Origin: Rhodobiaceae bacterium
GTDB taxonomy: Bacteria; Pseudomonadota; Alphaproteobacteria; Puniceispirillales; Puniceispirillaceae
Direction: 5' to 3'
Assembly: GCA_018624035.1 (NCBI GenBank)
Contig: JAAZUU010000002.1
Coordinates: 1 to 54,963 of the forward strand
DNA: 54,963 bases
Shown: positions 29,616 through 46,005 of the stretch, piece by piece
Layout of the letters: the number at the start of each line of letters is the position of its first letter
Position numbering within the stretch: the first letter of the stretch is position 1
The notes under the pieces: generated by a model
Seen by the model: the letters and a program-made list of their open reading frames with translations, nothing else
The model's database searches: none
Told to the model about the DNA's origin: nothing
Program-made: the position numbers and the translations under genes

Positions 29616-30401
29616 ATGCATCACACAACCTATATGAAAGCCGGCAACACCGACGATGCCGTCGCCAGAATGGCCGATGGCGGCCAGCTTCTGGCTGGCG
29701 GCATGACGCTGATCCCGACGATGAAGCAGCGGCTTGCCAATCCCGAGACGCTGGTCGATCTTGCCGGCTGCGGCCTTGCCGGGATCGAGGATCAGGGTGA
29801 TTCGATCAGGATCGGTGCCATGACAAGGCATGCCGATGTGGCCGGATCCGACCTTGTCCGCGGTGCCATTCCGGCGCTGGCGGCGCTTGCCGGTGGCATC
29901 GGTGACCGTCAGGTCCGCAACCGCGGCACCATTGGCGGGTCGGTTGCCAACAATGACCCGTCAGCCTGCTATCCGGCGGCGGTTCTCGGCCTCGGCGGCA
30001 CCGTCCACACCGACAGACGCGACATCGCGGCCGATGATTTCTTCACCGGCATGTTCGAGACGGCGCTTGACGAGGACGAGATGATCACCGCGGTCAGCTT
30101 TCCGAAAACCGGCAAGGCGGCCTATGTGAAATTCCCCAACCCGGCGTCGCGCTACGCCATGGTCGGGGTGTTCGTCGCCAGCGCCGTGGACGGAACACGC
30201 GTTGCCGTGACCGGCGCCGGCAGTGATGGTGTCTTCCGCCATGCCGGCATGGAGGCTGCGCTCGATGCCGGCTTCAGCGCCGGCTCGCTTGACGGCATCA
30301 CCGTCGATGCCGACGAGATGATCAGCGATATCCACGCCTCCGGCGATTATCGCGCGCATCTTGTTCGCGAGATCGCGAAACGCGCCGTGGCCGCCTGCTG
30401 A
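29616..30401 (+). CDS. coxM: CO-dehydrogenase-like FAD subunit
   Basis: A 261-residue FAD-binding medium subunit. GGMTLIPTMKQRL near residue 29 and the second FAD loop RNRGTIGGSVANNDPSA near 104 are diagnostic. It accepts electrons from the CoxS clusters and hands them to the respiratory chain or another acceptor. It follows coxL by 12 bases with an aaggagga ribosome site and is closed by a terminator about 40 bases on. Confidence 0.94.
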   Translation: MHHTTYMKAGNTDDAVARMADGGQLLAGGMTLIPTMKQRLANPETLVDLAGCGLAGIEDQGDSIRIGAMTRHADVAGSDLVRGAIPALAALAGGIGDRQVRNRGTIGGSVANNDPSACYPAAVLGLGGTVHTDRRDIAADDFFTGMFETALDEDEMITAVSFPKTGKAAYVKFPNPASRYAMVGVFVASAVDGTRVAVTGAGSDGVFRHAGMEAALDAGFSAGSLDGITVDADEMISDIHASGDYRAHLVREIAKRAVAAC

Positions 30402-30441
30402 CCTGGCCTGCCGCGCTGCCGAATTCATCACCGGAATGACG

Positions 30442-30467
30442 AAGGGGCGGGTTTTCCCGCCCCTTTT
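30442..30467 (+). terminator. Terminator of coxSLM
   Basis: aaggggcggg, tttt, cccgccccttttc: a perfect 10-bp stem with a 4-base loop and a short T-run, 40 bases after the coxM stop. It separates coxSLM from the ABC transporter genes. Confidence 0.88.
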
Positions 30468-30666
30468 CGTTTGCCCTTGATCGATTCACGGCGGGCGCGC
30501 GGCTGCTGACCACCTGGCAAACAGGTTGATCAGGCCCACTCTTTTCAAGAAATTCTGGACTCTCGGATATCGAATGATACGATTTCCGCAGAAGTGAACC
30601 TGCCTGACGAAACAGTTGCGTTGCCGACCAGACCAAAAAGCCCCGTTACATTTCCATGCCGTACAG

Positions 30667-31353
30667 ATGAGGTCCTCCTTGGATTTGCGGTTTTTCGAAC
30701 TTTACCGATCCCAGGAATATCTGGGCCTTCTTCTTGATGGTGCATTGATATCACTGGGGTTGACCGTTGCCGCGGGCATCGCGGGGTTCATGGTGGCCTT
30801 CGCGCTGGCGGCGTTGCGGTTCTGGAAAGTCCCGGTGCTGGACTACATGGCCGCCGCCTATATCGATTTCATCAGAAACACACCGCTGATCGTGCAGTTA
30901 TTCTTCATAGCTTTCGGGCTTCCCATGCTGTTCGGATATGTGTGGCCGTTCTGGTGTCACGCGCTTTTTGCGCTGACCATCAATTTTTCCGGTTATTTCG
31001 CCGAAATCCTGAGAAGCGGGTTCGCCTCGACACAGAAGGGCCAGCTTGAAGCGGCGGCGGCGCTGAACCTGTCGAACAGCACGATTTTCAAATCCATCAT
31101 CGTTCCCCAGACACTTATCAAGATGTTCCCGTCGCTTTCCAGCCAGTTCATTTTCCTGTTTCTGACGACAGGTGTGATTTCAGAGATAGGTGTCGAGGAT
31201 CTCACCCATGCCGGTCTGTATATCGACAGCCGGACATTCAGGTCGTTTGAGGTCTTCATCACGCTGACGGCATTATATGTGGCCCTTGCCCTCACCCTGA
31301 AAGCCGGTTTGCAGTACCTGTTTGCCAGGACATTGGGTCGGAGAATGGCCTGA
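30667..31353 (+). CDS. Amino-acid ABC transporter permease 1
   Basis: About 228 residues, five or so membrane segments, of the HisM/GlnP type. The permease-ATPase contact loop is LEAAAALNLSNSTIFKSIIVP near residue 125, preceded by IDFIRNTPLIVQLFF, typical of polar amino-acid importers. ATG 30667 is chosen; the frame is open back to a TTG at 30616. It overlaps the next gene as TGATG. Base composition is clearly less GC-rich than the cox genes before it. Confidence 0.88.
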   Translation: MRSSLDLRFFELYRSQEYLGLLLDGALISLGLTVAAGIAGFMVAFALAALRFWKVPVLDYMAAAYIDFIRNTPLIVQLFFIAFGLPMLFGYVWPFWCHALFALTINFSGYFAEILRSGFASTQKGQLEAAAALNLSNSTIFKSIIVPQTLIKMFPSLSSQFIFLFLTTGVISEIGVEDLTHAGLYIDSRTFRSFEVFITLTALYVALALTLKAGLQYLFARTLGRRMA

Positions 31354-32036
31354 TGGCAGATTTGTTGATTGAAATCTTCGGCAAACCGCAGGGCATCATC
31401 ATTTTTCAACTCCTGTCCGCCTGTCGGTTCACGATTTACCTCTCCCTGATCGCGTTTCTGGGGGGCGGGGCGGTCGCCGGCATGGTCACGCTTCTTCGGA
31501 TCTCGCAAATTCCACCGCTTCAACGACTCGCCACATCCTATATCTGGATGTTCCAGTCCGTACCCCTGCTGATGCTTCTGTTCCTGATCGGCCTTGGCGT
31601 GCCAAGACTGTTCGACATCAACGTGAACCCCTGGACGGCGGCTACCGTGGCCCTGATTTTGTTCACATCGGCCTATTTGGCCGAAGTCTGGCGTGGCGCC
31701 ATCGAATCAGTGGCACGCGGGCAATGGGAAGCCAGTTTTGCGCTCAACATCCGATATTCACTGCTGCTCAGAAGAGTTATCCTGCCGCAGGCGATCAAAT
31801 TCGGAATAGCCCCGACCGTCGGCTTCATGGTTCAGATTATCAAGGGAACCTCCCTTGCCTATATCATCGGATTCAACGATCTGATGCTGGCCGGAAAAAG
31901 ATGGGCCAACGCGCCGGTCCTCGGCTCCGAGCCATTTGTTGTATTTCCGCTTATGGCGGTCATGTATTTTTGTATTTGCTACCCGCTTGCGATCTTCGCA
32001 CGCAAGCTGGAGGCAAAGTCGCTAACAGGAAGTTAG
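31353..32036 (+). CDS. Amino-acid ABC transporter permease 2
   Basis: A 227-residue second permease of the same family, with YIWMFQSVPLLMLLFLIGLG and the coupling loop QWEASFALNIRYSLLLRRVI-like segment followed by LPQAIKFGIAPTVG. It would pair with the upstream permease as a heterodimer. The start overlaps the upstream stop, so the two are translationally coupled. Confidence 0.9.
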   Translation: MADLLIEIFGKPQGIIIFQLLSACRFTIYLSLIAFLGGGAVAGMVTLLRISQIPPLQRLATSYIWMFQSVPLLMLLFLIGLGVPRLFDINVNPWTAATVALILFTSAYLAEVWRGAIESVARGQWEASFALNIRYSLLLRRVILPQAIKFGIAPTVGFMVQIIKGTSLAYIIGFNDLMLAGKRWANAPVLGSEPFVVFPLMAVMYFCICYPLAIFARKLEAKSLTGS

Positions 32037-32064
32037 CAATCCCCCCCAACAGAAAGGTAATTCA

Positions 32065-32850
32065 ATGAGAAAGATACTAAGCATATTCGCCGCGGCGTTG
32101 CTGACTGTAACTTCGGTTACCATGGCAAAGGCTGGCGACCTGTCAGAAATTCTGGCCGATGGTGTTGTGAAGATTGCGGTTCCGGAATCCTTCGCCCCTT
32201 TCGGGTCCGTTGGCGCATCAGGTGAGCATGAAGGCTATGATGTCGATGTGGCGAAGCTGATCGCCGAAGACCTCGGGGTGAAGCTGGAACTTGTTCCGGT
32301 CGTATCCAAGCAACGTATCCCCTTCCTCGAGACCGATCGCGTAGACCTGGTGGTGTCGGTAATGGGCGCCAACCCGTCACGTGCCAAGTCGATCAATTTT
32401 TCCAGTGCCTACGCCCCGTTCTATTCGGGTGCCTTTGCATCATCGAAGCTGGATATCTCGTCTCCTGACGATCTGAGCGGACTGACTGTTGGCGTGACCG
32501 GAGGAACGCTGGAAGATCTGGAGCTTACAAAGGTTGCCCCGTCCGACGCGAAGATCACGAGGTTTGGCGACAATGCGGCCACCCTGAGCGCCTTCACCTC
32601 CGGTCAGGTTCAGGTGCTCGTCACCGGCAACACGGCTGCCGCGTCCCTTACCGAGGCGGACCCGAACCTTGATCTTGAGCGCAAATACATCATCAAGGAC
32701 AGCCCGTGTTTCATCGGCGTCAAAAAGGGAAATGAGGATCTGCTGCGCTGGGTGAATGTCTTCATCCTGCACAAGAAACTTGGCGGCAACCTCGATGCCA
32801 TTTCCAGAAAATGGCTGGGTCAGGCCCTGCCACCCCTGCCGGCCCTGTAG
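32065..32850 (+). CDS. Periplasmic amino-acid-binding protein (family 3)
   Basis: A 261-residue extracytoplasmic binding protein. A signal peptide is clear (MRKILSIFAAALLTVTSVTM, cleavage after AKA near residue 23). EGYDVDVAKLIAEDLGVKLE and LVVSVMGANPSRAKSINFS are the two hinge-side blocks of the glutamine/histidine-binding family. ATG 32065 has agaaagg upstream. The ligand cannot be predicted; it is the specificity component for the two permeases and the ATPase around it. Confidence 0.92.
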   Translation: MRKILSIFAAALLTVTSVTMAKAGDLSEILADGVVKIAVPESFAPFGSVGASGEHEGYDVDVAKLIAEDLGVKLELVPVVSKQRIPFLETDRVDLVVSVMGANPSRAKSINFSSAYAPFYSGAFASSKLDISSPDDLSGLTVGVTGGTLEDLELTKVAPSDAKITRFGDNAATLSAFTSGQVQVLVTGNTAAASLTEADPNLDLERKYIIKDSPCFIGVKKGNEDLLRWVNVFILHKKLGGNLDAISRKWLGQALPPLPAL

Positions 32851-32928
32851 GTCGCCTTAACCTTCGGAGGGGTGACAACCGGCACCTCGGGTTTTCGCCC
32901 CTCCCATCCTCCAGAGCGAGCACTGCAT

Positions 32929-33681
32929 ATGCCAAAGAACGCGGAAGACGCCATCGTGAAGATGGAGAAGGTCAACAAGTGGTTTGACGATTTCCAGGCC
33001 ATCTGTGACGTCGACCTGACGATTTTCGAGGGTGAGAGAATCGTGATTTGCGGGCCATCAGGTTCCGGCAAGTCCACATTGATACGGTGCCTGAATGGCC
33101 TTGAGCAACATCAGTCAGGGACAATTACCGTTCATGGCACCGAATTGACCGGCAAGGATTCAGCTGTGCGACAGGTGCGTGAGAATGTTGGAATGGTCTT
33201 CCAGCAATTCAATCTGTTCCCACACCTCACCGTTCTTGAGAACTGCACGCTGGCGCCGATCAGCAACGGGAAACTGGACGAAAATGCAGCCCACGAAAAA
33301 GCCATGGAATATCTTGAAAGGGTACAGATTCCGGAACAGGCGGACAAACTGCCCGGGCAATTGTCAGGTGGCCAACAGCAACGCGTCGCGATAGCAAGGG
33401 CGCTTTGTATGGAGCCAAAGCTGATGCTCTTTGACGAGCCGACCTCCGCCCTCGATCCGGAAATGATCAAGGAGGTTCTTGATACCATGGTGAGTCTCGC
33501 CGAGGACGGAATGTCGATGATCTGTGTGACGCATGAATTGAATTTTGCGAAAAGCGTGGCCCACCGGATTATCTTCATGGACAATGGCAGGATCGTCGAG
33601 GACCAGCCACCCGATGATTTCTTTGAACGGCCGAAATCAGCGCGCGCGAAACTGTTTCTGGACCAGATACTCAGCCATTGA
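32929..33681 (+). CDS. Amino-acid ABC transporter ATP-binding protein
   Basis: About 250 residues: Walker A GPSGSGKST, Q-loop near QQFNLFPHLTV, signature LSGGQQQRVAIARAL, Walker B LMLFDEPTSALDPE and the switch histidine in VTHEL. It is the GlnQ/HisP-type ATPase for the two permeases upstream. I use ATG 32929, which fits relatives; a GTG at 32872 would add 19 residues. Confidence 0.93.
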   Translation: MPKNAEDAIVKMEKVNKWFDDFQAICDVDLTIFEGERIVICGPSGSGKSTLIRCLNGLEQHQSGTITVHGTELTGKDSAVRQVRENVGMVFQQFNLFPHLTVLENCTLAPISNGKLDENAAHEKAMEYLERVQIPEQADKLPGQLSGGQQQRVAIARALCMEPKLMLFDEPTSALDPEMIKEVLDTMVSLAEDGMSMICVTHELNFAKSVAHRIIFMDNGRIVEDQPPDDFFERPKSARAKLFLDQILSH

Positions 33682-33684
33682 GAC

Positions 33685-33764
33685 AGATACATACGGTGTC
33701 AGATACATATGATGTCAGATACATATGATGTCAGGCACATATGGTGTCAGGCACATATGGTGTC
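33685..33764. repeat. Five tandem 16-bp units with a CATATG core
   Basis: Units: agatacatacggtgtc, agatacatatgatgtc (twice, identical), aggcacatatggtgtc (twice, identical), then a decayed sixth copy at 33765-33780. Adjacent identical pairs show stepwise duplication. Each unit is an imperfect palindrome around catatg. The array lies between the end of the ABC ATPase gene and the 3' end of the convergent tRNA-Gly gene, so it is not in an obvious promoter. Confidence 0.92.
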
Positions 33765-33808
33765 AGGTATTGGGTATTTCACACCCCGACACCGCAGGAT
33801 GAGGCAAA

Positions 33809-33884
33809 TGGAGCGGGCGACGGGGTTCGAACCCGCGACTCCGAGCTTGGGAAGCTCGTGCTCTACCAACTGAGCTACACCCGC
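33809..33884 (-). tRNA. tRNA-Gly (anticodon CCC)
   Basis: The minus strand folds as a 76-base cloverleaf. The acceptor stem gcgggtg pairs with cgcccgc (one G-T pair), and CCA is encoded. The D arm has agctcagttggtagagc. The anticodon stem is cgagc/gctcg with loop ttcccaa, giving anticodon CCC (33849-33851 on the plus strand). The T arm is cgggttcgaacccc-like. It reads the glycine codon GGG. Confidence 0.97.
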
Positions 33885-34042
33885 AAACCGCCCGAAGTCT
33901 GTCGGTTTTAAACTGTCCGGACAAGTGATTTTTCGAAGGGTTTGCGCTGTCGCCCGGACCGGCTGTTTTCGTGCGAACCAGCCACAGACACCTAACCTGT
34001 TGCCTTGACCGGCCTTTAACGCCATATAGGCTCAGGGGAAAG

Positions 34043-34090
34043 AACGCATGTAAGGGCGCATGTAAGGGCGCCTGCCGGGGCGCACCGCGG
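34043..34090. repeat. 12-bp tandem units upstream of folE
   Basis: aacgcatgtaag, ggcgcatgtaag, ggcgcctgccgg and ggcgcaccgcgg: four consecutive 12-base units, the first two nearly identical. They end 20 bases before the folE start, so they lie in its leader. Confidence 0.75.
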
Positions 34091-43171: not shown

Positions 43172-43182
43172 ACGACACGCCT

Positions 43183-43215
43183 GCCTTGCCAGCCCGCCTT
43201 GCCAGCCCGCCTTGC
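43183..43215. repeat. 13-bp tandem repeat after recX
   Basis: gccttgccagccc occurs twice in a row at 43183-43208 and a third partial copy begins at 43209. It starts 11 bases after the recX stop. Confidence 0.75.
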
Positions 43216-45938: not shown

Positions 45939-45964
45939 CGCTCAAAGAGTCCGCTCAAAGAGTC
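45939..45964. repeat. Perfect 13-bp tandem duplication upstream of the LuxR-type gene
   Basis: cgctcaaagagtc occurs twice in a row with no mismatch, 25 bases upstream of the regulator's start codon. Confidence 0.85.
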
Positions 45965-45965
45965 C

Positions 45966-46005
45966 GAGTGATCAAAATGAATGATATTTGAGTATCATTT
46001 CACTC
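45966..46005. promoter_or_regulatory. Nested inverted repeat upstream of the LuxR-type gene
   Basis: Inner arms aatgata (45980-45986) and tatcatt (45993-45999) are perfect complements around six bases; outer arms gagtg (45966-45970) and cactc (46001-46005) also pair. The site is in a 295-base AT-rich region (45915-46209) with no gene. It could be an operator for the regulator; this is inference. A second palindrome, aaccttaaggtt, is at 46186-46197. Confidence 0.5.

Follow-up and report, generated by a model that had tools for sequence, protein, structure and literature searches.

What is a run of five near-identical 16-bp units doing between an amino-acid transporter operon and a tRNA gene? 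The question arises in a contig of 54,963 nucleotides (JAAZUU010000002.1, forward strand; hereafter the window) from Rhodobiaceae bacterium, assembly GCA_018624035.1, a member of the Puniceispirillaceae. One relative (G055) has a contig that matches the record of SAR116 cluster bacterium AG-325-I21 at all of the 6,277 bases compared, and the host family therefore includes that organism. A sequence-only reading of the window had described the repeat and suggested that it might bind a protein, form a structured RNA 3′ end or mark a site of integration at the tRNA gene.

A five-unit array between convergent genes

TRF places the repeat at 33684–33766, with a period of 16, 5.2 copies, 92% matches and a score of 117, the highest in the window. 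Units matching within 3 mismatches number five (33684–33763), while shuffles of the window gave a mean of 0.23 and never reached five, which excludes a chance origin. The five-copy array reported beside tRNA-Gly is thus real. The interval first assigned to it (33685–33780) has limits that are slightly off: nucleotides 33764–33780 begin as a partial sixth unit (CAGGTA) and then turn into unique sequence. The units lie head to tail, and because they are contiguous, without unique spacers, the locus does not qualify as a CRISPR array.

Three unit types are present, differing from each other at 2–3 bases. Copy 1 stands alone, copies 2 and 3 are the same, and so are copies 4 and 5, a pattern of mismatches that supports the stepwise duplication proposed earlier. 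Each unit had also been called an imperfect palindrome. A dyad can indeed be read from the sequence, but it is weak: ACAT-ATG-ATGT in copies 2 and 3, and GGCAC-ATATG-GTGTC, which needs one G-T pair, in copies 4 and 5.

The array begins 2 bp 3′ of the stop codon of a transporter ATPase gene on the + strand (gene end, 33681), and 45 bp separate its end from the 3′ end of tRNA-Gly(ccc) on the – strand (33809–33884). It therefore lies between converging genes, as had been noted. Its last unit supplies one arm of an inverted repeat, GGTGTCAGG ... CCCCGACACC (33759–33793), that extends to the tRNA side and occurs at a single site in the host genome. This is the first strong hairpin downstream of tRNA-Gly, and no T run follows it on the tRNA strand.

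The array borders a transporter segment absent from close relatives

In the closest relative, G002, homology to the window ends at 30467 and resumes at 33803, such that the host genome has 3,335 bp (30468–33802, + strand) where G002 has 58 bp. The segment carries four + strand genes of an amino-acid ABC transporter. These encode polar amino-acid permeases A (HEQRo_perm_3TM; 30664–31353, start codon uncertain) and B (31353–32036), a substrate-binding protein (32065–32850) and a GlnQ-like ATPase (32929–33681) that scores below the curated equivalog cut-off. Eight of 11 relatives in the same genus have the cutL-like, coxM-like, tRNA-Gly, folE and trkH genes without the transporter in between. Among the remaining three, G011 carries different sequence next to the tRNA, the G009 contig starts inside the tRNA region, and G003 gave no folE match. 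Loss of the segment in the relatives is formally possible; insertion in the host's own lineage is simpler. GC content across 30001–34000 is 53–59%, compared to mostly 60–66% in the flanks, and so the array does sit at the boundary of a lower-GC transporter block, as first described, this boundary being the edge of a lineage-specific insertion. The insertion displaced tRNA-Gly by ∼3.3 kb from a GC-rich terminator hairpin with a T run (approximately 30442–30467), which in relatives occupies the gap between the coxM-like gene and tRNA-Gly.

The empty site of G002, from tRNA-Gly to the coxM terminator, contains a two-copy direct repeat of its own. This repeat, whose unit differs from that of the array, has 16 identical bases at a spacing of ∼19 and is located where the host genome has the insertion.

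Relatives of the transporter occur in many other contexts (80 loci kept of 110 found). TRF and tRNA scans of these 80 substrate-binding-protein loci revealed no comparable multi-copy 16-bp array. At four loci inspected downstream of the ATPase gene (in G006, in G055, and at L145 and L146) there was none either, which argues against an array that travels with the transporter. In G006 (contig C53, locus L122; the G055 locus is L119), the transporter lies beside M20 peptidase and gamma-glutamyltransferase-like genes, and at L145 (OY288107.1) it follows Rieske-oxygenase-like and carboxymuconolactone-decarboxylase-like genes, with all these names assigned by eye. Such contexts hint at its substrate.

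The unit is confined to this locus

Within the 207 contigs of the host genome, a 24-mer pattern allowing up to 3 mismatches matches at this array only. When the pattern was relaxed to 20 bases, three more single sites appeared, at 2–3 mismatches each. The two-unit pattern was found in none of 100 relatives, where the segment bearing the array is also missing. Hence the further genomic copies for which a search had been suggested do not amount to a second array. A dispersed repeat or REP-like element can be discounted, given the confinement of the 24-mer and the single occurrence of the inverted-repeat pattern in the host genome. There were no exact matches to the array in viral_contigs or genome_contigs, and a phage or plasmid origin was rejected, the best matches having E values of only ∼4. 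Comparison with known RNA families yielded only the tRNA above cut-off in this region.

One-off arrays with a shared unit length

Short arrays abound in 20 other contigs of the host genome, and every array inspected there has a distinct unit. To avoid the length bias of TRF (whose rows were merged where they overlapped a better row), we scanned all lags of 4–100 for runs of exact self-match spanning 14 bp or more. The host sample outside the window covers 248,059 bases in these 20 of the 207 contigs, or ∼303 kb with the window. Its contigs were picked partly by number and partly since they were named in earlier results, and the control loci are also non-random. Genes were called by a hexamer script, which tends to choose upstream starts.

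The host has 14 noncoding runs outside the window, of which 13 fall at lags 14–16 (eight at lag 15, three at lag 16 and two at lag 14) and one at lag 19. Including the window, there are 17 noncoding runs at lags 13–17 versus 2 at all other lags, and when the whole 303-kb sample was doublet-shuffled ten times, no runs arose at lags 13–17. The corresponding counts are 8 versus 2 in G001, 4 versus 2 in G002, 2 versus 4 in G003-11, 3 versus 2 in other genera of the family, and 3 versus 6 in the order relative G061. For E. coli and Shinella they are 0 versus 2 (26.4 kb) and 0 versus 0 (15.3 kb), respectively. Noncoding runs at lags 13–17 numbered 0 in 31.1 kb from 25 SAR116-like control loci and 1 in 56.9 kb from 51 other loci. 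The host sample is clearly distinct from the pooled control sets (P ∼ 3e-12). Thus, the length peak is strongest in the host, G001 and G002, weaker in other members of the genus (P = 0.004), and not a trait of SAR116 overall. In the single-contig relative G016, 8 runs in coding DNA fall at lag 15, and its 5 noncoding runs at lags 13–17 all lie at lags 14–16. Another 24 runs in this genome, at lags 51–100, were left out, as we attribute them, from the repeat consensus, to a CRISPR-like array. The latter lies at the genome start (L240:106–1785) and, based on the TRF consensus, resembles a CRISPR array in its 36-bp repeat and varying spacers of ∼30 bp.

Three smaller members of the class lie in the window: a 13-bp unit in 2.8 copies just after a stop codon (43179–43215), present as one copy in G002; a 13-bp unit in 2.2 copies (45939–45966); and a 12-bp unit in 2.2 copies upstream of folE (34045–34071), absent in G002. 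The first and last of these represent extra copies relative to G002. Host contig C1 starts with a 15-bp unit in 6.9 copies, 100% identical and reaching the contig end (L142:1–103), an array that may have broken the assembly there. We did not find a 15-bp duplication peak in SAR116 described in the open-licence literature, which is weak evidence of absence.

Reading frame, indels and junction homology

Pooling five samples (host, G001, G002, G003-11 and G016), the lag of coding runs is divisible by 3 in 58 of 65 cases; 29 fall at lag 15, one at lag 17, and none at lags 13, 14 or 16. Noncoding runs in the same samples have lags divisible by 3 in 19 of 48 cases, with 2, 8, 13, 12 and 1 at lags 13, 14, 15, 16 and 17, respectively. 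One length distribution, combined with a reading-frame filter, explains both sets of counts.

Lineage-specific events can be seen by aligning the host to G002. Across 53,956 aligned bp there are 38 gaps of at least 5 bp, of which 7 are tandem duplications, and those of at least 9 bp measure 15, 15, 15, 15 and 16 bp (two in the host, three in G002). The sole tandem-duplication indel against G001 is 7 bp, and the six against G003-11 are 6–12 bp. Because indels at these larger distances are 6–12 bp, only the closest pair displays the 15–16-bp pattern clearly.

Of 71 exact duplications at lags 12–18, we retained 54 two-copy cases, dropping runs that were shorter than one unit or had about three or more copies. 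Junction homology of at least 3 bp was seen in 36 of the 54 (chance, ∼2%), and its mean was 4.1 bp versus ∼0.4 bp by chance, although these values are inflated, as some runs sit inside longer arrays, including two from the array at 33684. This excess of microhomology argues against target-site duplications left by transposon excision. Taken together, the frame filter, the 15–16-bp indels and the microhomology point to misalignment between short repeats ∼15 bp apart. Loss of the PolA 5′ nuclease or of MutS was rejected as the cause of the 15-bp preference, since the host genome, like the two other members of the genus that are at least 90% complete, carries both MutS and the 5′ nuclease domain of PolA.

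Origin of the array

Minisatellites, or VNTR loci, of bacteria form by replication slippage. The array at 33684 shows testable features of such a locus, namely head-to-tail units and, at the level of the class, microhomology at the borders. We consider it probable that the array is a locus-specific minisatellite, generated by slippage between short repeats through a process elevated in this SAR116 genus. A single stretch of ∼16 bp in the lightly constrained gap between the transporter and tRNA-Gly would have been tandemly duplicated, and further duplications, with point mutations intervening, would have led to the present order of units (1; 2=3; 4=5). The events would be of the replication slippage or template misalignment type, between short direct repeats ∼15 bp apart, and would be unusually frequent in this genus and centred on 14–16 bp. 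We infer that replication slippage is the mechanism; the array itself was presumably formed in place and is likely neutral. We found no ancestral single copy of the unit, and the weaker length peak in G003-11 (2 runs at lags 13–17, 4 at others), the shorter tandem-duplication indels against G003-11 and G001, and the presence of the PolA 5′ nuclease and MutS are counterpoints to slippage. A broader proposal, which comes close to persuading us and is offered tentatively, is that a mutational process in a SAR116 sublineage makes tandem duplications of 15 ± 1 bp chromosome-wide, their length set by a physical ruler in the replication or repair machinery. Proteins would thereby keep acquiring new 5-codon repeats, and gene ends new minisatellites, with the array at 33684 as one product.

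The location of the arrays bears on another reading, that of a 3′-end element in which a long mRNA hairpin ends or protects the transporter message and insulates it from convergent tRNA-Gly transcription. In this reading, the element would date from after the insertion had severed tRNA-Gly from the shared terminator, which in the host is now 3.3 kb distant. Besides the close spacing to the stop codon (2 bp), there is the tendency of host arrays to concentrate near gene 3′ ends: 17 of 28 (window plus L123–L142) lie no more than 30 bp away, compared to a random mean of 6.2, and 0 of 300 trials were as high. Pure mutation would not predict this clustering, unless those sites are the least constrained. 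Furthermore, the + strand of the array folds better than most shuffles (MFE –38.5 kcal/mol, z = –2.21; 8 of 200 shuffles equally good), which also runs counter to simple slippage; the value for the – strand is unremarkable (z = –0.42). However, the array has no T run and drew no terminator call, and hence is not an intrinsic terminator with a GC stem and T run. The sense strand is not favored over 34 near-gene-end arrays in the genus samples (14 versus 20, P = 0.27), and the arrays have no common sequence. On the first of these results we rejected a general role for RNA structure of the sense strand, and the earlier idea of a structured RNA 3′ end is left unsupported, despite the + strand z value. 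Clustering in the other samples (9 of 16 in G001, P = 0.07; 5 of 9 in G003-11, P = 0.07; 3 of 11 in G002) is weak in G001 and absent in G002. The concentration of host arrays near gene 3′ ends may reflect either relaxed constraint immediately behind stop codons or a gene-end role. Overall, we judge a 3′-end element to be unlikely.

Three other explanations fare worse. That the units are binding sites for a putative DNA-binding protein, in the manner of iterons or an operator array, would suit the fact that they recur every 16 bp and carry a partial dyad (CATATG). Yet the unit occurs elsewhere in the host genome only as single weak matches and in none of the relatives, other arrays carry unrelated units, and this one is positioned after a gene rather than before it. 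We regard this as quite improbable, and the earlier protein-binding suggestion, taken to mean a dispersed site, finds no second array to back it. Highly improbable, in our view, is a scar or attachment region left by a genomic island that integrated at tRNA-Gly. The segment is missing from 8 of 11 relatives, adjoins the 3′ side of the tRNA and has lower GC, as an island might, but its far border lacks a tRNA-Gly 3′ fragment. The check proposed for such a fragment returned a best match of 12 of 20 bases, which is the shuffle level (mean 12.2). No integrase or recombinase was seen beside the four transporter genes, and in relatives the block occupies other contexts with no comparable array following; the integration reading is accordingly abandoned. 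Repeats adjoining tRNA genes are not necessarily marks of integration. As to assembly artefacts of metagenome-derived contigs, the host genome is in 207 contigs and one array lies at a contig end (L142:1–103). Nevertheless, assembly errors would not be expected to keep the reading frame as the coding lags do (58 of 65), and G016, a single contig, has its own coding runs at lag 15 (8) and noncoding runs at lags 14–16 (5), making this explanation extremely unlikely.

Relation to known repeats

A single array of this kind is ordinary; it is the length-tuned duplication habit of the genus that deserves specialist attention. Like minisatellites and VNTRs, these arrays consist of head-to-tail, locus-specific units with stepwise duplication and point-mutated copies, and are in frame within genes. 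Unlike them, the unit length is held tightly to 14–16 bp over unrelated loci of one genus, and array density is far above that in the E. coli and Shinella samples. In this class, indel lengths peak sharply whatever the sequence, and they do so in a lineage of free-living marine bacteria that has PolA 5′ nuclease and MutS genes, which makes the size-setting of slippage events directly testable. The class also represents a steady supply of in-frame 5-residue insertions and of fast-changing typing loci in ocean bacteria.

REPs are dispersed palindromic repeats in many copies. The inverted repeat adjoining the array, of GTGTC...GACAC type, is reminiscent of REP/RAYT systems, but differs in its single occurrence in the host genome and in the restriction of the 24-mer to the array.

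Judging from passages of PMC9879509, the nearest published parallel that we found is the tandem repeats of Borgs, which are extrachromosomal archaeal elements. These passages describe one-off units of independent, recent and lineage-specific origin, with flanking partial (seed-like) repeats and genic units divisible by three; the repeats are perfect and A-rich, with units of 18, 20 and 21 nt. The array itself is no Borg repeat, lying as it does in an alphaproteobacterial genome contig rather than a Borg element. The arrays described here share with the Borg repeats, as far as those passages go, their one-off, recent and lineage-bound character, partial-repeat flanks and in-frame placement in genes (PMC9879509). 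They differ in being on a bacterial chromosome, with units averaging 56% GC, copies that are often mutated and a length peak at 15.
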